Positions 21,872 through 40,502 of a DNA stretch of 64,000 bases are shown in pieces; position 1 is the stretch's first letter; each line of letters begins with the position of its first letter. The position numbers and the translations under genes are program-made. This DNA comes from Pseudomonas eucalypticola (GTDB taxonomy: Bacteria > Pseudomonadota > Gammaproteobacteria > Pseudomonadales > Pseudomonadaceae), in assembly GCF_013374995.1 (NCBI RefSeq), contig NZ_CP056030.1, positions 3,132,501-3,196,500 of the forward strand, read 5' to 3'. The notes beneath the pieces were generated by a model, which was given only the letters and a program-made list of their open reading frames with translations, ran no database searches and had not been told where the DNA came from.

Positions 21872-22576
21872 CTCTGCGCTTTGAAGCCGCTGTTCGCACA
21901 CAGCAAGGCAATGAGGTTCTTCGGGAAAGTGCTCGCGCTTTACCAGACAATCGTCTGCTGATGCCGATAGAGAACAGGATGGAAAAACTCACTAGAGGTG
22001 GCGCTAGGGTGATCAGGCCTAGTGTTCCTTTGATGGGCCGGATAGCATTTCATCATTGGAGGCTGGAACGCTCTGGGCTGACCTCGCCAACCGCAATGAC
22101 TCGTGCTGAAGTGTTGTGTCAGTGCTCCGCACGCCCGCTCTGGGTGATTTTTGAGGAAGATGGGTAAGATGGATCCCTACAAGCGCGCTCACTATGTCAG
22201 CAGGCTAGCCAGTGAAATTGGCGCAATAGGCCAATCCTTCGAGGCCTTCCGGGGGCTGGTGCTGACATTGGCATTGAATGTGCCGGTCAACACTCAAGGA
22301 ATCAATTCCAGAGGCTTTCCCGTTGCAGGCGTGGTTGATGGAGTGTCCCCAGATGGCTTTCAAGCCGCTGAGTGCAGCAGGGGCAAGATTCGCTGAGCGG
22401 CGTCGTCGAGTAGCCTTCACCAAACTTTCATGGCATATAGCTACCGGGTAATCACCACCGCCGGCATCCATGTGATTGAAACCTGTTGCCATGTGGGGGC
22501 TGAATGCCTTCTGGAAAGACTGAGCCTGCAAAACTGAGGCCCTTCACTCACCAACACCTGATTGCCAGGGAGAGCC
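21872..22576. other. 700-base stretch upstream of the reverse transcriptase, no confident gene
   Basis: Open frames at 21868-22167 (plus) and 22205-22531 (minus) have no motif and poor starts. Several defence-associated reverse transcriptases need a structured RNA encoded upstream, and this gap has room for one, but I could not identify a convincing long stem by eye. The 200 bases before 22577 are the place to look. Confidence 0.3.
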
Positions 22577-24298
22577 ATGCAGCTACAGGACTTGCTTTCA
22601 AGAGGGTATTTCCCGATCCAGCTTCCAGTCGGATTCAGCACCACGCAGTTGGCGGAAAAAATCGAGGAGCTCCAAGCTTCCTGGGATGAGGCCCTGGACG
22701 GAAGAAGGCGCATACTTTCCCAATCTGAACGATTTTCGGTGGCGAGGTCGTCATACAGCAGACGTACCACCTCTATACCCAACCCGGTCAATTTCTATGG
22801 ATTGGCCAAGGACATCTGCCGGTACTGGCCGAAAATCCAAGAGCATTTCGACAAGAGTGAAATCTCTCGAAGCATTCCTGGGACTGGAGGATCGCTGCGG
22901 GCGATTGAGCTGACGAAATTCACTGACCTGTACGAGGAGCGCGTGCGCCGCTCGGCGGGCGCACGGTATGCGCTGGTCACCGATATCTCGAGCTATTTTC
23001 CCACCATCTACACCCATACGATTCCGTGGGCCTTGCATACAAAGGCGCTAGCCAAGATCAACAGGGGCAAATCCGATCAGTTCTTCGGCAACACCCTGGA
23101 TCAGCGCTGCATGGGTACGCAGGATGGGCAGACCATTGGGTTGCCGATTGGCCCGGATACGTCGCACATCATCGCCGAGATGATAGGCGTCGCGATTGAC
23201 GATTCCATTCGAGACGCGCTGGGTGGCTGGCCTAAAGGCTTCCGCTATGTCGATGACTTCACCTTCTTTTTCAACACCAGGGAAGAGGCTGAACGCGCGC
23301 TGGCTGTCATAATCAAGTGCGTCAGCGCATTTGAACTGCAGATCAATGCATCCAAAACGAAGATTGTTGAAGTCCGCGAGCTCGTCCAGGAGTCCTGGAA
23401 ATACACCCTCAAAAAGCTGGTTGTCTCACCGAAGCGCCGTCAGCAAAAAGACGACATCCACCACTATTTTGAGGTGCTGTTCTCGCTGGAGGCACGGTTC
23501 AAGGATGAAAGCTTGGTCAAGTATGGCTTGAAGCAGCTTTCATCCACGATTATCAAAAAATCCAACTGGCCCATCGCCGAAGCCTACCTGCTCAAATGCG
23601 GGTATGGATTTCCCAACACACTTCAAGTGATCACCCAGATCCTAGTGACTTATCATCGCCATCAGTATGAATTGAACCGGGAAGCGCTGGGCGATTTCTG
23701 CAGGAACCTCCTCGGGTCAGCCTCTGCAGCGAACCATCATAGTGAAACGGCCTGGCTACTATGGCTGTGCAAGGAGCTCAGGATTTCCCTAGAGGCGCCA
23801 CTGGTACAGCAAGTGCTCCAGATGGAGAGCTCTGTGTGCTCGCTCATCGCGCTGGATCTAAATCAGTCCGGTTTGGTGGCCGGCGAGCTCAGTCTTGCCG
23901 ATCTCGAGTCGTTGGCAACGGGCCAGGCGCTTGTAGGCAACAATTGGATGCTGGCTTATGAAGGCGGGCGCCGGTGTTGGCTTTCCAACACAAACCTTGA
24001 ATTCATCCAAGGGGAAGAATGCTTCGCAAAGATGCTAGAAGCTGGCGTAGGCTTTTATAACGAAGAGGCTGAGCTCCCGCCTATCTTCCAGCTTAAGCAA
24101 TCAGCGCTCAACGACTTCGATTTCGACTCCGACGCTGCCATCGAAGACGAATTCGACTTCGATGACATGGATGAAGAGTACTTTGACTCCGCTGACCATG
24201 GCGATGAGGACGAGGACGAGCCAGAGACGGCCGCGCGGCCAGCTGGCACCCAAGATCTGTTTGCAGCCGACGACTCCGATCCAAACGAAGTCTGGTAG
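22577..24298 (+). CDS. UG/Abi-type defence-associated reverse transcriptase with acidic C-terminal tail
   Basis: The 573-residue protein has RT motif A in LVTDISSYFPTIY (Asp136), motif B in GLPIGPDTSHIIAE and the catalytic YVDD at 224-227. No maturase or endonuclease domain is present, so it is neither a group II intron nor a standard retron RT. The helical C-terminal half (about 330-540) fits the repeat-like domain of UG/Abi reverse transcriptases. It ends in a strongly acidic tail (DFDFDSDAAIEDEFDFDDMD and on). ATG 22577 follows AGGGAG by four bases. Proteins of this group protect against phage; the exact DRT type cannot be fixed by eye. Confidence 0.85.
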   Translation: MQLQDLLSRGYFPIQLPVGFSTTQLAEKIEELQASWDEALDGRRRILSQSERFSVARSSYSRRTTSIPNPVNFYGLAKDICRYWPKIQEHFDKSEISRSIPGTGGSLRAIELTKFTDLYEERVRRSAGARYALVTDISSYFPTIYTHTIPWALHTKALAKINRGKSDQFFGNTLDQRCMGTQDGQTIGLPIGPDTSHIIAEMIGVAIDDSIRDALGGWPKGFRYVDDFTFFFNTREEAERALAVIIKCVSAFELQINASKTKIVEVRELVQESWKYTLKKLVVSPKRRQQKDDIHHYFEVLFSLEARFKDESLVKYGLKQLSSTIIKKSNWPIAEAYLLKCGYGFPNTLQVITQILVTYHRHQYELNREALGDFCRNLLGSASAANHHSETAWLLWLCKELRISLEAPLVQQVLQMESSVCSLIALDLNQSGLVAGELSLADLESLATGQALVGNNWMLAYEGGRRCWLSNTNLEFIQGEECFAKMLEAGVGFYNEEAELPPIFQLKQSALNDFDFDSDAAIEDEFDFDDMDEEYFDSADHGDEDEDEPETAARPAGTQDLFAADDSDPNEVW

Positions 24299-24529: not shown

Positions 24530-25480
24530 CTACCTGTCGTACTTGGAAGGCAATGGACAGTCGTAATTGACGTCAATCATGTCCAAGTTCTTCAGCTCGA
24601 AATTGGCGTAGCTTGTCCCATTCGATGTACGTACTGTGGGCTGTCCGTACAGGAACACGAATGCGGTCGGTTTAGGCTCCTGAGAGATCTTTGAAAGCCT
24701 GGTTGCCATGAGGTTCTTGAGCCTGTAGCGGTCGATGAGCGCATCCGAGACGAAGCTTGAGGTTGTTAAGCTTTCGGTTCCGCGCATCAAGCATTTCTTG
24801 AACTTGATCCGGTACGCATCGTCTTTTCTGGTGCGGTCAATGTAGGCCCAGCCATAGTAGATGACGGGGTGGTCGGGGAGGTCGTTAAGATCCTGCTCCC
24901 AAATGCATTTGAAAATGCTGTCGTACGCTACGTCCTGGCCAGCGATGTTGAGGCGGCGAAACTCCAGGGTGTTGTCAGATCGATAGCGAATGTACCGACT
25001 CACCACCGAACGGACGGAGTAGATGGGGCCAACGATCCCAGACTCACCCAGCTTGGTGGTGTATGGCCTGGTGCTCTTAGCGCGCTTTTTCGCTACCTGC
25101 ACATCGGCAGCGGGATCCTGGGTGGGCTCGTCGTAGTACGAGTCGGGACGCTCGAGCTTGAAGACGTCAACAATGGATTCATCGACAGTTCTGCGCTCCT
25201 GCCCGTCGGGGCCGTTCGGCTCAACCTTCAGATCGACCGCCTTCCCGTTGACAACCCCGCACGTCTCACTATGGTCGCCGTAGACCTTGAAGTGCGGCAC
25301 CACCCGCATGCTCTGCACGTCCTTGTCCAGATTCGCACAGGTCACCTGCGCTGTGCAGCCCGCGCCCGGACAAACGAAGAGACGTTTGTTGGTGATGACT
25401 CCTGCCCAATACAGGTCATAGGCTCGATCGGGGTCGACAAAATCTCCAGCCTCAAGGCTAAACGCCACATCCAATGCCAT
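24530..25480 (-). CDS. Hypothetical protein with N-terminal Cys/His metal-binding motif
   Basis: Counting from ATG 25480 (316 residues; GGAGG lies about twelve bases upstream), the first 80 residues hold FVCPGAGCTAQVTC, then PHFK and HSETC. This C-x4-C-x5-C...H...H-x3-C layout recalls the zinc-binding front of CoiA-type competence proteins and related nuclease-associated proteins. The remaining 230 residues, with an acidic linker at about 110-140, are unassigned. It converges on the reverse transcriptase gene. The link to CoiA is a pattern resemblance only. Confidence 0.55.
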   Translation of the reverse strand: MALDVAFSLEAGDFVDPDRAYDLYWAGVITNKRLFVCPGAGCTAQVTCANLDKDVQSMRVVPHFKVYGDHSETCGVVNGKAVDLKVEPNGPDGQERRTVDESIVDVFKLERPDSYYDEPTQDPAADVQVAKKRAKSTRPYTTKLGESGIVGPIYSVRSVVSRYIRYRSDNTLEFRRLNIAGQDVAYDSIFKCIWEQDLNDLPDHPVIYYGWAYIDRTRKDDAYRIKFKKCLMRGTESLTTSSFVSDALIDRYRLKNLMATRLSKISQEPKPTAFVFLYGQPTVRTSNGTSYANFELKNLDMIDVNYDCPLPSKYDR

Positions 25481-26091
25481 GTCTCTAGTACAACCTCCTG
25501 TAATCATCATGATGGCGTCCAGCGCCACAGCGAGGAAATCAACGGCTCGATATCCTGATTACCGTCTAGCACGCCCTTGAGGCATCGCGCTGACCGAATC
25601 CTCGCACACAATCCGGAGCATGGCGATCTGCGAGGATGGCAAAATGAAATCGTCGAATTTCTTCCCATTTGCCTGTCGAGCGGCACCGTGAGCGCGAGCT
25701 GGCGCCGGCGCGGTGAACCGGATCAGTAATCGGAACCTGGTGACTGACTCAGCAGTTCGATGGCTAGATTAATGGTGGGCCATCCGGTTCAAGGGGCTAG
25801 ATTTGATGCGATGGCCTCAAAGCGGGCAGGGCATTCCAGGCATACTAAGGAATGCGTAAGTGACGGAGGATGTCAGATCATCTGGGGAGGCGTCTGCGCG
25901 ACCCCATGCACCCATGGCCCATGGCTGTCATCTGCGGCTCCTCGACCCCGCCTGATCCGTGCCAGCGGGCTCACGCCACGGCGTGGTGCGCTGGAGCTTC
26001 CCGTAGTGCCATGTTAGGTTGGTTTTTTGAATGCATGGTCGCCGTTGGATCAATCCGACGCCGATCGACCAGCCGCATAAATGGAGTCGCC
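25481..26091. other. 610-base stretch without a confident gene
   Basis: Plus-strand open frames here have no ribosome-binding site or family motif, and the 230-codon frame running through it is best explained by the antitoxin starting at 26092. No repeats or RNA features were seen. Confidence 0.35.
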
Positions 26092-27095: not shown

Positions 27096-27533
27096 ATGAG
27101 TAAGCCTTTCAAAGACCGCATTCATGCTATGAATCAGATGTATAAGCTGCCGATCAACAGCGCTCCGACGCTTCTCGCCGATCCTGCGGACAAGCTCAGG
27201 AAGTTCAAGGCCACACTGATGGCTGAAGTCCATGAGATCGATGAAATCGTCGAGAAGATCGAGAAAGGTGAAGCCGAGATCGATATCAAGGTTGCCATAG
27301 CCGACCTGCTGGGTGATGTGATGGTTTACTGCCGGTCTGAGGCCCTGAAGTACGGGTTACCATTGGAGGACGTCCTGGACGTCATCATGGACAGCAACGA
27401 AAGCAAACTGGGAGCAGATGGAAAGCCTATCTACGACGAGAACGGGAAGTTCCTCAAAGGCCCGAATTACTGGAAGCCAGAGCCCAAGATCAAAACCTTG
27501 CTTCTTGGCGCTGGGGACAAAGCGGACGTTTGA
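27096..27533 (+). CDS. MazG-like all-alpha NTP pyrophosphohydrolase
   Basis: The 145-residue protein has the MazG/PRA-PH metal-site pattern: E44-x2-E47 with further acids in LMAEVHEIDEIVEK, and D70-x3-D74 in DLLGDVMVYC. The C-terminal stretch ESKLGADGKPIYDENGK, then GPNYWKPEP, is usual for this dimeric NTP/dNTP pyrophosphatase group. These enzymes hydrolyse nucleoside triphosphates to monophosphates. AGAAGGAAG stands eight bases before ATG 27096. Its stop overlaps the longest frame of the next gene, so it heads a tightly coupled three-gene operon with a GHKL ATPase and a large protein of unknown type. Confidence 0.85.
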   Translation: MSKPFKDRIHAMNQMYKLPINSAPTLLADPADKLRKFKATLMAEVHEIDEIVEKIEKGEAEIDIKVAIADLLGDVMVYCRSEALKYGLPLEDVLDVIMDSNESKLGADGKPIYDENGKFLKGPNYWKPEPKIKTLLLGAGDKADV

Positions 27534-27547
27534 TTGGAGAAACAGGC

Positions 27548-28693
27548 TTGAAACCTATCAACCTTGGCAAGACGCGTACGCTCAAAGACATCGAAGCGGC
27601 CATTCGCAAGATCTGCGACAGCCAGGGTGAGAGGTTTCTCATTCAGGCAGACATGCTCAGTGCGCGGCATGGCGCCATGCATGATGCCGCACGCCTGCAA
27701 CTGATCGTTACCTTGGCCCGGCAGCAGTTGCAGAGCGACTACCTTGATTTCAACCCGCAAGCCGATGCTCAAGCGTTGCTGCACAACCTCGCTAACTGTT
27801 CGCCAGGTATTGCTGCCTTGCGCCTTTCCAAGGGTATCCGGCTCGGCGAGCAGACATTCAATCGCCGAGAGGTCTTTCAGGAGTCGGTCGAACGAATGCA
27901 GGCCATGGACGCCGGCAGGTACGAGGACGTCGTCAACGGCCGAGTCGTCGATCTGATCTGTGTTGCAGGATCGAAGGTTCAGCACCTGCGACCGCTTTTT
28001 AGCGCGGAAGGCAAGGTGAAGCCTGCGTCTGAAATGACCACTGAGATGCGCAGGCTCATTGACTTCGTCAACAAGCAGAGCGGGCGTGCCAGTGTTCCGG
28101 ATTCTCTCCTCGAAAGCTTGGGCCTGCTCTGTTCTGAGCTTGTATCCAACACCCAGGAACACGCGACTTCAGACCATTTGGGCCACCCGTATTTCGCCCA
28201 CGTAGAAGGCGTCATGGTCGGCTGGAAGCGACTTGAGGACGAGATTTTCGCTGAAGACTTTGACGGTAGTGAGGACTTGCGCCGTTACTGGGAGCGAGAG
28301 TCGTCCACCACCGACAACAACAAGACCAGCCTGCGCGCATTGCACATCAGCTTCTTCGACTCAGGCCCCGGATTCGCCTCCAGGTTTAGCGGCAGGGCGG
28401 TGCAAGAGATGTCGCTCCAGGAGGAGCGAGACTACCTGCTCAAATGCCTGCAGCCACGCCAGTCCAGCAAGACTCTGGACGCTGCGGGCATCGGCCTGCC
28501 TGCCATCCTGAACGAGCTTCGCAAGGTAGGCGGATTGATCCGTATCCGTTCCGGGCGACTGTGCATCTACAACCAATTCGAAGAGAACGACCAGCACCGT
28601 CATCCTGACGATTTCAGGGATTGGGACACCACCGATTTGGCGCCCGTTGCAGGCGCTGTTGTCACCATCATGATTCCATTGAGGGGCATGTAA
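27548..28693 (+). CDS. GHKL-type ATPase of unknown role
   Basis: The 381-residue protein has a C-terminal GHKL (Bergerat) fold: the N box ELVSNTQEHA (197-206), the G1 box DSGPG (271-275) and the G2 box AAGIGLPAI (312-320). There is no histidine-kinase phosphoacceptor helix, and the 190 residues before the ATPase are unassigned. Such ATPases without a kinase module often act as switches in defence proteins. The start is uncertain: TTG 27548 has GGAG eight bases before it, while TTG 27530 overlaps the MazG-like stop. Its stop overlaps the next gene (TAATG). Confidence 0.78.
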   Translation: MKPINLGKTRTLKDIEAAIRKICDSQGERFLIQADMLSARHGAMHDAARLQLIVTLARQQLQSDYLDFNPQADAQALLHNLANCSPGIAALRLSKGIRLGEQTFNRREVFQESVERMQAMDAGRYEDVVNGRVVDLICVAGSKVQHLRPLFSAEGKVKPASEMTTEMRRLIDFVNKQSGRASVPDSLLESLGLLCSELVSNTQEHATSDHLGHPYFAHVEGVMVGWKRLEDEIFAEDFDGSEDLRRYWERESSTTDNNKTSLRALHISFFDSGPGFASRFSGRAVQEMSLQEERDYLLKCLQPRQSSKTLDAAGIGLPAILNELRKVGGLIRIRSGRLCIYNQFEENDQHRHPDDFRDWDTTDLAPVAGAVVTIMIPLRGM

Positions 28694-30894
28694 TGGAGCG
28701 TTTCTATCAATGGATGTCCGCTGTCAGCGACCCCAGTGGCAGTCATGAAGCGTTGGTCGTCTGCTACAACGATTCCGAGCTCTCGGTTCAGCATGTCTTC
28801 ACTGACATCGAGGTGGCTCTCAAGGCCCAACGCCATCTACCTGACTGCGTCTACATCCTGGGGACGTCTGATCAGCTATCCGTATTCAGGAGCGGTTGGG
28901 CTGACGACCAAGACCGCCTGGCCAACCTCCTGAAGCGTGGCGAGAAAAACGCGCGTGTATGTGTCCATGAATACGTGTTCCTGGAGTGGAATGGCGCAAG
29001 CTTCAACCCCCATGTGCTGGGCGGCAAAGAGCTTGTCTACCGTCATGATCCTAGCGCTCTCTTGAGGGATGGTTTGAGAACGCTGATCGAAAAGAACAAC
29101 GTGATTCATGCAGCGCCATCCGCGCACTCCTTCAAGCACCCCTCCGGCACACTAAACAACGTGTTCATCCAGACCAGGGAACTGGCGAGTGATGAAGCCG
29201 AGGTGTGTGTGGTCGGGTATGCAATTGCACTCGAGTACGGTGCCAGGCTGCGCCAGGCTGGCAAGGTGTACATCGACACCATGGGCATCTATGCATTCGC
29301 GAAAAATGCGCTCGCTCGCTTGGACAGCAAGGCTGAAGTCATGAGCTTCCACTCCTACGAACGGCTCAAGACCATCTACCCGCCGGAAGGTGAGTATTTC
29401 TGCGTGGTATCAGCCTCTACATCTGGCGGTATGGCTAAGCAGATGGGGGAGCAGGGGTTCACAGAGGAGTGCGTAGCCACGCTGATCGATCGCACAGCGG
29501 ATGGCCGATACGGAGGTGTGCTGGTCGCCCTGGACGACGTTGACTATCCACTGCCAGTCAAGGCTGAGGAAGGCTGCACGCTGATCGAGATCATAGGAGA
29601 GAACTTCTCGGCGAAATCCAAGCCACCCAAGTCGATCACGATATCCTTGAAGCATGACCCGAAGCGGCTGGCCAAATTCCACAAGTACTTCGGTATGGGA
29701 GGAATTGATGGATTCAACAAGTCGAGCAAGCCTCGCAAGCTGTTGACGCTCAATACTGATCTGTTGCTGGCGGACGCTGCCTTCAGAACATGGCTGGCCG
29801 CTGAAATTGACTGGTCGGTCTCCATGGCGACAAACCTGATCGTCTACGCCGACGATGACGGGTCGAAGAAACTTGGCGAGGTGGCCCATGAGATTCTCAG
29901 CGAGAAATGGGGCGCGACCAAGCCAATCCAATGCGTGCCTTATAGCGAGCTTGACCAAGTTGAGTTCAAAACCGTCTCCGGGGTGCTGGTCGCGACAGTA
30001 GTTGCGCGCGATGGCGGCATCCTGAGAGAAATCAGTCGTGATCTGCGGGCCTACATGGATGCGACCGTGCCGCGCAGGTTCCTTGCACCGATCGGGATTC
30101 CACAGAGCGCGAGAGCCTGGACGCTTCTCAAAACTTTCCTGATGAAGAACCCCACGCCCCGGGAGTATGGCTTCTCTAACTGGCTGTGCCTGCCCATCGG
30201 AGATGACGGAAAAGAAAACGCCTGGAGTCGGTTGACCAAGGTTACCTCCGCCGGGCAGGTCGATGACGTCGGCTTCACGCCTGCAGTCTCGGACGAGGTT
30301 CGTCATCAGGCTCTTGATGAGGCCGCTGAGCTGATGGAGGAGCACAAGCACAGCTTCCTGCCAAAACATAATGGCAACGCGCTCGCCCTATCCGATGGTT
30401 TTTTGTTCTTCGACCCCTCAAGTAATGTGGGCAAGGACTGCCAAAACGTACCGCAAAGCACGGTGTTCTTTACGATTGCTGCCGTCCTCCAGTTCGCTCG
30501 GGAGCACGAAAATCATGAGCTTCGCCTGCAACCGACGGGGTATGAATCCGTGGTGTTATCACCGGAGTGCTTCCTCCGGTTTAACGACAACGTCCTGCAG
30601 GCGTCATTCCTCCGGGCGTGTCTCCCTTCAGAGCTTGATTACTCAGCAAGCCCGGAATTGAGCAAGCTGATGAAGGAGCTCATCGCCAAGGTATTCGCCC
30701 GCTGGGAGCGGACTTACGGCGATGCCGCCTTAGAGTTTGCCGCTGCACTGGCTACCGGTACGCTGAAACTCACGCAGGAAGACGCCCGGGCACTGCTCGA
30801 GGAGGCTATCGAAAACCGTAAGGACAAGGCCTCCAGCCTGCTGGGATTGCTCCTGCTGAGCCAACGGGCGCTGTTCCCTGCCTCCGAAGGGTAG
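28693..30894 (+). CDS. 733-residue protein with two phosphoribosyltransferase-like segments
   Basis: No full-length family is recognised. Residues about 150-250 contain strand-loop text (KVYIDTMGIYAF and EYFCVVSASTSGGMAKQM) that resembles a type I phosphoribosyltransferase with a degraded PRPP loop. Residues about 382-455 repeat the pattern (TNLIVYADDDGS and VSGVLVATVVARDGGILREI). The canonical acidic pair of an active PRPP loop is lacking in both, so binding rather than catalysis is more likely. The C-terminal 280 residues are unassigned and end in helices. ATG 28693 overlaps the GHKL gene's stop (TAATG), which fixes it as the third gene of the operon. The PRT assignment is inference. Confidence 0.7.
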   Translation: MERFYQWMSAVSDPSGSHEALVVCYNDSELSVQHVFTDIEVALKAQRHLPDCVYILGTSDQLSVFRSGWADDQDRLANLLKRGEKNARVCVHEYVFLEWNGASFNPHVLGGKELVYRHDPSALLRDGLRTLIEKNNVIHAAPSAHSFKHPSGTLNNVFIQTRELASDEAEVCVVGYAIALEYGARLRQAGKVYIDTMGIYAFAKNALARLDSKAEVMSFHSYERLKTIYPPEGEYFCVVSASTSGGMAKQMGEQGFTEECVATLIDRTADGRYGGVLVALDDVDYPLPVKAEEGCTLIEIIGENFSAKSKPPKSITISLKHDPKRLAKFHKYFGMGGIDGFNKSSKPRKLLTLNTDLLLADAAFRTWLAAEIDWSVSMATNLIVYADDDGSKKLGEVAHEILSEKWGATKPIQCVPYSELDQVEFKTVSGVLVATVVARDGGILREISRDLRAYMDATVPRRFLAPIGIPQSARAWTLLKTFLMKNPTPREYGFSNWLCLPIGDDGKENAWSRLTKVTSAGQVDDVGFTPAVSDEVRHQALDEAAELMEEHKHSFLPKHNGNALALSDGFLFFDPSSNVGKDCQNVPQSTVFFTIAAVLQFAREHENHELRLQPTGYESVVLSPECFLRFNDNVLQASFLRACLPSELDYSASPELSKLMKELIAKVFARWERTYGDAALEFAAALATGTLKLTQEDARALLEEAIENRKDKASSLLGLLLLSQRALFPASEG

Positions 30895-30901
30895 AGCAGA
30901 G

Positions 30902-30966
30902 GCTGTAAACCAATTTTTTATACTGTTAACCGCTGTGGTTTACAGTGCAAAAAGTTGGTTTACAGC
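30902..30966. repeat. Inverted repeat GCTGTAAACCAA / TTGGTTTACAGC with an internal third copy
   Basis: GCTGTAAACCAA (30902-30913) and its exact complement (30955-30966) bracket a third, near-identical TGTGGTTTACAG (30934-30945). It lies just after the three-gene operon and before two terminators. It could be a hairpin, an operator group or a recombinase-arm set. Confidence 0.5.
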
Positions 30967-31008: not shown

Positions 31009-31029
31009 CTAAGGTTTACCTTAGTTTTT
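31009..31029 (+). terminator. Intrinsic terminator, first of a pair
   Basis: The stem CTAAGG / CCTTAG with loop TTTA is followed by TTTTT. It lies 115 bases past the stop of the 733-residue protein's gene. Confidence 0.6.
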
Positions 31030-31058
31030 GCAGACTTCTGAGCGGTTGGGGTGAGAAT

Positions 31059-31079
31059 CTAAGCTCTAGCTTAGTTTTT
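31059..31079 (+). terminator. Intrinsic terminator, second of a pair
   Basis: The stem CTAAGC / GCTTAG with loop TCTA is followed by TTTTT. It lies exactly 50 bases after the first and shares the AATCTAAG...TTAGTTTTTGC frame, so the pair looks like a duplicated unit whose stems have changed by compensating bases. Confidence 0.6.
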
Positions 31080-31366: not shown

Positions 31367-32160
31367 TCAGCCTCTGTCTCGCGTTCCTAAGTGTTTGACC
31401 GACCGCGCTCGCTCTTGATCATGTGAGTGGTAGTAGGTGTTTTGAGTTGTCGCCAAGTTGGAATGCCTTAGATCGTACTGGAGATCCTTCGCGTTTCTGA
31501 ACGGCGCATCAAAGGTCGCCGAGGTATGACGTAGCCAGTGCGATGATGCTACGCGCAGGCTGTCCATTTCATAAGGCTCACGTCCTTCTGCACGCATTCT
31601 GACGAGCGCTTGGTCAAAAACGGTTTGGAGGAGGGCGCGCACCTGTCGATCCGAGAGGCCTGCGCGACCGCTCAGCGTTTTCAGAAGCGGAGTTTTCTCC
31701 TGATAAGTAGGCAATGGACTCAGTCCAATGAAGGTACGGTACCTTGTGAGATACTTCGTTACATACTCATCACGCACTGCGATTTTTCCGGACTGTTGCC
31801 CTTACCCACAACATAGAACCACCAGTTTTCATCAGCATCCAGACGAAAATCTCCCATGGTGGGCTGCCAATTGGTACGCCCAACGATATCCGATATGCGC
31901 AAATACATGCTGAACATCGTAACGAGCACGAATAGGGTGCGCTCATGTTTCCTAGGATCAGCAGCGGCCATGGATTCTGCAGTGTCAATCACATAATCCC
32001 ATTGCAAAGGGGTCAACGCCCGAGAAGTGCTGGATTCTAGCTGAGATGAACTATACTGCCCCTTTTTAGAAACCTTGCGGAACGGATTCGAAGTAGCGAT
32101 TTCTTCTTCCACTAGATATTCATAAAAGCCGCATAGGTATAAATACGCTTCGTCACTCCA
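31367..32160 (-). pseudogene. Tyrosine integrase remnant, frameshifted and 5'-truncated
   Basis: Two frames together read as one phage-type integrase. The upstream part holds YLVEEEIATSNPFRKVSKKG, the catalytic Arg region MYLRISDIVGR and FYVVGKGNSPEK. The downstream part continues IAVRDEYVTKYLTRY to the HWLRHTSATF box and the final Tyr (TTQNTYYHSHDQ). One A missing from an A run at 31783-31787 (T run on the plus strand) would explain the frame change. Homology to coding text stops at 32160, where the GTGTCC repeat region begins, so the N-terminal domain is lost. It is not expected to be active. Confidence 0.75.
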
Positions 32161-39123: not shown

Positions 39124-39849
39124 TCAGCAGTGTTCGCGGCGCAGAAACTTCTGCGTGTGCTCGCTTTGCGGCGTGCCCAATACCTGTGCCACGGTGCCGA
39201 TCTCGGCCACGTTGCCCTGGTGCAGGAACGCCACACGGTCGCTGGAATTGCGCGCGAAGGTGATGTCATGGGTCACCACCACCATGGTCATGCCTTCCTG
39301 GCGCAGCAAACGCATGGTATCCAGCACCTCGCCCACCAACTCCGGGTCCAGCGCCGAGGTCACCTCGTCGAACAGCATGTAGGTGGGTTTCATGGCCAAC
39401 GCGCGGGCAATCGCCAGGCGCTGTTGCTGGCCTCCGGACAGGCGCGAGGGCAATAGCTCGGCCTTTTCCGCCAGGCCTACATGGGCCAGGTGGTGCAAGG
39501 CGATCTCGCGTGCCTCGCGACGGCTTTTGCCCTGTACCAGGCGCGGCGCCAGTGCCACGTTTTCCCAGGCTTTGAGGTGCGGGAAGGCGTTGAACTGCTG
39601 GAAGACGATGCCCAGGCGTTGGCGCAGGGTGTTCAGGTCGGTGGACCGGGCGTGCACCTGGATGCCGTCGACCTTGATGCTGCCGCCCTGTATCGGCTCC
39701 AGGCCGTTGATGCACTGCAGTAAGGTGGACTTGCCCGAGCCGCTGGCGCCCAGCAGGCACAGCAGCTCGCCTTTGTTCACGTCCAGGTCGATGCCCTTGA
39801 GAATCTCGATGTTGCCGAATTGCTTGCGAACGCCACGGATCTCGATCAC
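39124..39849 (-). CDS. Polar amino-acid ABC transporter ATP-binding protein
   Basis: The 241-residue ATPase has Walker A LLGASGSGKSTLLQ, the signature LSGGQQQRLAIARALAMKP and Walker B MLFDEVTSALDPELV, as in the HisP/GlnQ group. GTG 39849 has GGAGG eight bases before it and overlaps the permease stop. The longer frame upstream runs inside the permease gene and is not used. Confidence 0.92.
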   Translation of the reverse strand: MIEIRGVRKQFGNIEILKGIDLDVNKGELLCLLGASGSGKSTLLQCINGLEPIQGGSIKVDGIQVHARSTDLNTLRQRLGIVFQQFNAFPHLKAWENVALAPRLVQGKSRREAREIALHHLAHVGLAEKAELLPSRLSGGQQQRLAIARALAMKPTYMLFDEVTSALDPELVGEVLDTMRLLRQEGMTMVVVTHDITFARNSSDRVAFLHQGNVAEIGTVAQVLGTPQSEHTQKFLRREHC

Positions 39850-40502
39850 AGCGCCATCCTCCTTTCCAGGCGCGCGCTGTAGCGCGACACCGGGTAACAG
39901 ATCACGAAATAGAAGAGCCCCACGCCCAGCAGCAGCCACAAGGCTTCATGGGTACGGGTAATGAGGATTTGCGTGGACTTCATGTACTCCACGTAGCCCA
40001 CCACGCTGACCAGCGCGCTGTCCTTGGCCAGCCCCAGCAACAACCCCACCCAGGCGGCGAAGCTGGTGCGCAGGGCCAGCGGCGCGCTGATGTGACAGAA
40101 CTCCTGCAGCCAGCCGATGCCCAGCGACCGTGCAGCGCGCCGGTAAGTGGGTGGCACCGCGGCTAGGCCGCCGCGCACCACTTCGCTGGTGACCACGGCC
40201 ATGGACGAGCTAAGCACCACCACCGACAGCCAGAACGCGTTCACGCCCAGTCCCGACAACGCCAGGAAGCTGTTGGCCAGAATCAGCTGGATGATCATCG
40301 GCACGCTGCGCACCACGTCCACGTAGGGCGCGGTCAGCCACCGCAGCCACACCGAGCCGAAACGCATCCAGCCCAGGACAATGCCCGCCAGGGTGCCGAA
40401 CAGGCCAGCCACCAGGGTCACCCACAAGGTGTGACCGGCGCCCTGCAACAAGAACCACAGGTCATGCCAATGCAATGACGGGTCTGCGAATGTGAATTGC
40501 AT
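39846..40502 (-). CDS. Polar amino-acid ABC transporter permease
   Basis: The 218-residue permease has about five membrane helices and the EAA-type loop (GLAAVPPTYRRAARSLGIGW). ATG 40502 is three bases from the stop of the other permease gene and follows GAGGA. It is half of a HisM/HisQ-like pair. Confidence 0.9.
   Translation of the reverse strand: MQFTFADPSLHWHDLWFLLQGAGHTLWVTLVAGLFGTLAGIVLGWMRFGSVWLRWLTAPYVDVVRSVPMIIQLILANSFLALSGLGVNAFWLSVVVLSSSMAVVTSEVVRGGLAAVPPTYRRAARSLGIGWLQEFCHISAPLALRTSFAAWVGLLLGLAKDSALVSVVGYVEYMKSTQILITRTHEALWLLLGVGLFYFVICYPVSRYSARLERRMAL

Follow-up and report, generated by a model that had tools for sequence, protein, structure and literature searches.

What do three close-packed genes at the edge of a defence island encode, and which of them belong together? 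The genes lie in a 64,000-nucleotide stretch of the Pseudomonas eucalypticola genome (contig NZ_CP056030.1, positions 3,132,501 to 3,196,500; hereafter the window), in an assembly of 6.4 Mb and two contigs. They share the + strand, at the place that a sequence-only reading had given them, and encode a MazG-like nucleotide pyrophosphohydrolase of 145 amino acids (aa) (27096..27533), a GHKL ATPase (27548..28693; here A) and a 733-aa protein (28693..30894; here B). We find that the core of this operon is two genes, A and B. Their products match the PADLOC-DB models PDC-M65A (E 5.2e-28) and PDC-M65B (E 2.2e-54) and the genes are adjacent, which identifies the pair with the PADLOC candidate PDC-M65; the sequence-only reading had known of no named system with this composition. 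MazG has no match in PADLOC-DB and is what the clade of the window adds to the pair. Literature searches, from which bioRxiv preprints were left aside, found no paper on the function or structure of PDC-M65 or on a system joining a GHKL protein to a double phosphoribosyltransferase (PRT). The pair was thus already listed as a candidate; what is new is that its parts suggest an unusual and testable mechanism.

A two-gene core with an exchangeable upstream gene

How tightly are the three genes linked? We read 60 loci with a family match and removed five duplicates (L068, L070, L085, L086 and L087), which left 55; L092 gave no match, and near-copies (L005/L006/L022, L023/L064, L075/L076 and L080/L082) were kept. 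A adjoins B in 52 of the 55 loci, and the other three have an incomplete B. Among 398 genomes of the genus (the window's own included), the B model matches 23; the A model matches 18 of these and no others. When a broader A profile is used, three of the five genomes with B only prove to have A next to B (L088, L090 and L093). B is also present in 7 of 398 genomes spread over the phylum (again with the window's own) and in 5 of 385 genomes from the class of G394; its closest named relatives are from Pseudomonas, at 95% identity. The distances among A proteins follow those among B proteins (Spearman 0.81 over 54 loci, a value reached in 0 of 300 permutations).

MazG behaves differently. It lies directly 5′ of A in 16 of the 52 A+B loci, where the upstream slots were short in L023 (279 bases) and L083 (129 bases); six A-bearing loci added afterwards do not have it there. 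In a B tree of 54 rows, 14 MazG rows and L007 fall in one branch (support 99/97); the two further MazG loci, L003 and L019, have B in pieces or cut and are absent from the tree. MazG is therefore an accessory of one clade and lies outside the core, and the closed three-gene set that had been proposed did not survive the co-occurrence check. Three other rows form a separate branch (support 100/100) and carry a thyX gene (Pfam Thy1) 5′ of A, on plasmids of Rhizobium brockwellii, Agrobacterium tumefaciens and Rhizobium sp. NZLR1. A Rhizobium leguminosarum plasmid has A and a truncated B without ThyX, and a second record of this species (H22), outside the locus set, carries a B fragment. The MazG and ThyX branches lie apart on the B tree. 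One slot has thus been filled by two unrelated enzymes of the deoxynucleotide pool, and that a second clade has ThyX where the first has MazG strengthens the nucleotide theme.

Two loci show additional features. On plasmid p3 of Rhizobium sp. NZLR1 (L098), a dGTPase-like HD gene on the opposite strand comes 243 bases after thyX-A-B, and TIR and ThiF/multiubiquitin genes lie in the surroundings. In Pseudomonas sp. KNUC1026 (L003), a close relative of the operon with a B 91% identical, A and B are both in pieces, apparently a decayed copy.

Could MazG nevertheless be the effector? It matches PF03819 at the cut-off (E 1.9e-4, 22.1 bits for a cut-off of 22) and 3nl9, a putative NTP pyrophosphohydrolase (E 1.3e-6), and all 121 sequences compared (the window's and its 120 best matches) keep the acids E44, E47, D70 and D74, so that it has both the profile and the acidic metal-binding residues of a MazG pyrophosphohydrolase. 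Purifying selection seems to act on each of the three genes, with ratios of nonsynonymous to synonymous substitution (dN/dS) between the window and L002 of 0.03 for MazG, 0.09 for A and 0.08 for B. The MazG family is far larger than that of B (at least 2961 proteins at E<=0.001 versus at least 115), hence most MazG relatives presumably reside away from the operon. Relatives below 60% identity were found in 102 phage records, and the operon's MazG is the sole family member found in its own genome. A+B might sense infection and release MazG to hydrolyse deoxynucleoside triphosphates (dNTPs), as in dNTP-depleting defences; the position directly 5′ of A, the intact catalytic acids and the low dN/dS of MazG would all suit this role. 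However, most A+B loci have no MazG and those that do are confined to one branch, and MazG is thus not a common effector. We give this version a small chance.

B has two predicted phosphoribosyltransferase folds without the PRPP acids

In a structure model of B (predicted local distance difference test 87.3, predicted template modelling score 0.64), two type I PRT folds stand in tandem: an orotate phosphoribosyltransferase-like PRT1 (29050..29580, residues 120-296) and PRT2 (29662..30207, residues 324-505), followed by a mostly helical C-terminal domain (30220..30891, residues 510-733), all on the + strand. Sequence-profile support for these folds is weak, yet it falls in the same register as the structure. 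The orotate phosphoribosyltransferase PyrE is among the closest predicted folds for both units and can be aligned to them, weakly, by profile. The prediction agrees with the two degraded PRT-like segments first suspected from the sequence. No relative of the C-terminal domain (510-733) was found outside the B family, and no toxin domain was recognised in B.

The site that defines these enzymes is degraded. Type I PRTs carry an acidic pair within a 13-residue motif for phosphoribosyl pyrophosphate (PRPP). In the B protein of the window, PRT1 has S-A in place of the pair, in the loop remnant SASTSGG (S240-G246, 29410..29430, +), and PRT2 has no acid at residues 434-437, in the remnant VLVATVVARDGG (29983..30018, +); nor is the pyrophosphate-loop sequence of PyrE kept. 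We counted residues over 169 relatives. The B row of L018 comes from an open reading frame (ORF) with an out-of-frame N-terminal part and has junk in its PRT1 start columns. An acid at 240/241 occurs in 0 of 169, and the PRT2 pair in two, L071 (LDDV) and L112 (IDDV); four more (L088, L090, L091 and L093) keep a single PRT2 acid. As the pair is gone from PRT1 and almost always gone from PRT2, B is unlikely to catalyse phosphoribosyl transfer. L112, from Cupriavidus necator pHG1, is a deep-branching A/B pair beside an AVAST type 1 system, and its IDDV may possibly reflect a catalytic ancestor state.

Could B have acquired another activity? Three residues, D195, S240 and R452, are invariant in 169 of 169 sequences, and a catalytic effector switched on by A might use them for a new enzyme activity of its PRT folds, for example nucleotide cleavage or transfer. 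The two outlying relatives with a PRT2 pair would fit such an enzyme, and PRTases are named as effectors of type III retrons (PMC12548924) and of a DprA+PRTase system (PMC9122126). Against it stands the loss of the PRPP acids, from PRT1 throughout and from PRT2 in 167 of 169. We regard a catalytic B as the main rival to the receptor function proposed below, if a rather unlikely one. As those systems are named in the two papers, B has in common with them a PRTase fold in a defence setting; it differs in having two PRT folds per chain, no PRPP acids and a GHKL partner. The operon has no reverse transcriptase or noncoding RNA gene as in retrons and no DprA gene: within the three genes, no Pfam family other than MazG passes its cut-off, and the flanks were not searched for DprA.

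A is a GHKL ATPase with a SpoIIAB-like predicted fold

A has the residues expected of a GHKL ATPase. Over 175 sequences (387-aa numbering), N207, D277, G279 and G281 are present in all, and E203 (173/175), H211 (172/175), G320 (173/175) and G322 (174/175) in nearly all, so that the N, G1 and G2 boxes are all represented. N207 and D277 are the N201 and D271 of the sequence-only reading. The longest ORF opens at TTG 27530 (387 aa) and an alternative at TTG 27548 (381 aa), 14 bases past the MazG stop; the latter is the likelier start because, among the relatives listed, 81 of 120 measure 378-384 aa (17 of 120 measure 385-390 aa). At its other end, the stop of A is overlapped by the ATG of B at 28693.

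At E<=1, Pfam and NCBIfam match neither A nor B, in line with the description of A as a GHKL protein that has no recognised kinase module. The predicted structure consists of about 135 N-terminal residues, modelled as mixed alpha/beta, and an ATPase domain closest to SpoIIAB and to histidine-kinase ATPase domains, with SpoIIAB at the top of the structural list. For the N-terminal region, Pfam is silent on DHp at E<=1 in a search of the whole protein. SpoIIAB is a sequestering protein whose GHKL domain carries an E..N..H N-box.

Such a fold, together with two tightly linked genes, could also point to a toxin-antitoxin pair in which A neutralises a toxic B by ATP-dependent sequestration. We recognised no toxin domain in A or B, and proteins of ~380 and 733 aa are unusual for type II toxin-antitoxin systems; this explanation is quite improbable in our view, even with a precedent in VapKSC, a toxin-antitoxin locus whose VapK is a SpoIIAB-like kinase and a relative of CapK (PMC13373217). 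CapK itself, of CapK-CapS, is described in the same paper as a SpoIIAB-like kinase working for immune operons, with an HTH-STAS-GHKL architecture. CapK-type immune kinases also have a STAS-wHTH partner gene. To the extent of these descriptions, A shares with SpoIIAB/RsbW, CapK and VapK a GHKL domain (with SpoIIAB also the E..N..H N-box), and the theme of a GHKL ATPase or kinase beside immune genes; it differs in being paired with a double PRT protein instead of a STAS protein. Pfam gives no match in A or B to set against the CapK architecture, and the likeness to CapK is one of description. Fig. 6F of DefensePredictor (PMC13092281) likewise has MazG, as well as a histidine-kinase-like ATPase (HATPase), among the domains of its predicted, unvalidated systems, a resemblance to the operon in the domain names given in that text.

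The pair is associated with defence islands

Does the surrounding DNA point to defence? Flanking ORFs of at least 150 aa, up to three upstream and two downstream per locus, were compared with PADLOC at E<=1e-20; taken in locus order, 127 of the 234 were covered, and these come from 29 of 51 loci. They matched 150 PADLOC families, including Gabija, type I and II restriction-modification and PD-T7-5. By contrast, 126 of 132 control ORFs, from 20 regions elsewhere on the contigs of family-bearing genomes with G handles and not matched one to one, matched a single family, mad3, in 5 ORFs. The unit is PADLOC families, which are redundant, and the figures express a contrast rather than a gene count; the expected enrichment in defence islands was found. 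Examples are Qat, which follows B immediately on P. aeruginosa pBJ86, AVAST near A/B on pHG1, HsdR (type I restriction-modification) before A in L069 and TIR genes near the NZLR1 copy.

Two loci weigh against a defence function: L064 and L066 sit among transport and metabolic genes. With the MazG and ThyX partners, they would suit a mobile regulator of nucleotide stress or metabolism that merely hitch-hikes in islands and is not antiphage. The density of defence genes in the flanks relative to the control regions argues the other way, and we think such a regulator unlikely.

To the left of the operon, the window has CBASS, Qat and a Drt4/6-like reverse transcriptase. Of nine ORFs to the right, seven have no PADLOC match, one matches mad3 and weaker ATPase models and one an oxidoreductase model; Pfam assigns ORFs on this side to the major facilitator superfamily, short-chain dehydrogenases/reductases and solute-binding proteins. 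The mad3 match (39124-39939) is probably a generic transporter ATPase, since solute-binding protein genes adjoin it. As far as the scan reaches, the operon therefore forms the island's right-hand edge and does not sit between antiphage systems as had been thought.

A possible nucleotide switch

What is the mechanism of A+B? We tentatively favour, as a possibility short of a probability, a phage-triggered nucleotide switch made of an ATPase or kinase (A) and a nucleotide-binding PRT receptor (B), to which a swappable nucleotide-pool enzyme is added. Having lost the PRPP acids, the PRT folds of B would not catalyse transfer but bind a ligand, either a nucleotide or a phosphoribosyl compound. A, the predicted ATPase, would keep hold of B or let it go in a step that depends on ATP. 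Infection would shift the nucleotide pool, and B would then change its complex with A; the conserved C-terminal domain of B, once freed, would be the likely output that stops the phage or the cell. In the clade of the window, MazG may hydrolyse (d)NTPs and so tune the pool read by B or sharpen its depletion, and on the three Rhizobiaceae plasmids ThyX may act as an added pool editor in the MazG slot.

Alternatively, A could be a protein kinase of the SpoIIAB type with B as its substrate. The PRT1 loop, [VI]-S-A-S-T-S-G, is placed at a strand-helix turn and contains the invariant S240; the DSSG loop of STAS antagonists is a phospho-acceptor, and S240, in the dead PRPP loop, might be another. 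Phosphorylation of B by A would then depend on what the dead PRT pocket senses of the nucleotide pool, giving a partner-switch immune module in which a PRT fold replaces the STAS domain and MazG or ThyX are plug-in pool editors. We consider this kinase version very doubtful.

If the nucleotide switch is real, PRTase folds that no longer catalyse serve bacteria as immune receptors for nucleotides, under the control of a GHKL ATPase, and MazG and ThyX are interchangeable nucleotide-pool enzymes, modules of one system. The candidate PDC-M65 gains an interpretation of its domains, a set of named residues and a two-gene core, all ready for testing.

Features around the operon

Downstream of B, two near-identical stem-loops with T-runs (31009-31024 and 31059-31074, within 31009..31079, +) resemble the double terminators said to close the operon. 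The stem-loops are there; the scan that reports them finds 6 terminator-like sites versus 3.9 +/- 2.0 in shuffled sequence, a count within chance. A long inverted repeat, GCTGTAAACCAA...TTGGTTTACAGC, lies directly 3′ of B (30899-30966) with an extra copy of GGTTTACAG; it is missing from the output of the terminator scan and is perhaps a recombinase site. Further right, two ORFs at 31367-32112 (-) match nothing in Pfam or PADLOC at the thresholds applied; by eye they resemble a broken tyrosine recombinase (HWLRHT and, later, HSN.ATT..YYH).

On the left, the antiviral-type reverse transcriptase (22562-24298, +) matches PADLOC Drt4 (1e-220) and Drt6 (1e-180) and scores below the NCBIfam Drt4 cut-off (217.6 vs 450 bits). 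Facing it is a gene for a 332-aa protein (24530-25528, -) with weak matches to PD-T4-2_A (E 0.019) and DMTF1_N (E 5e-7).

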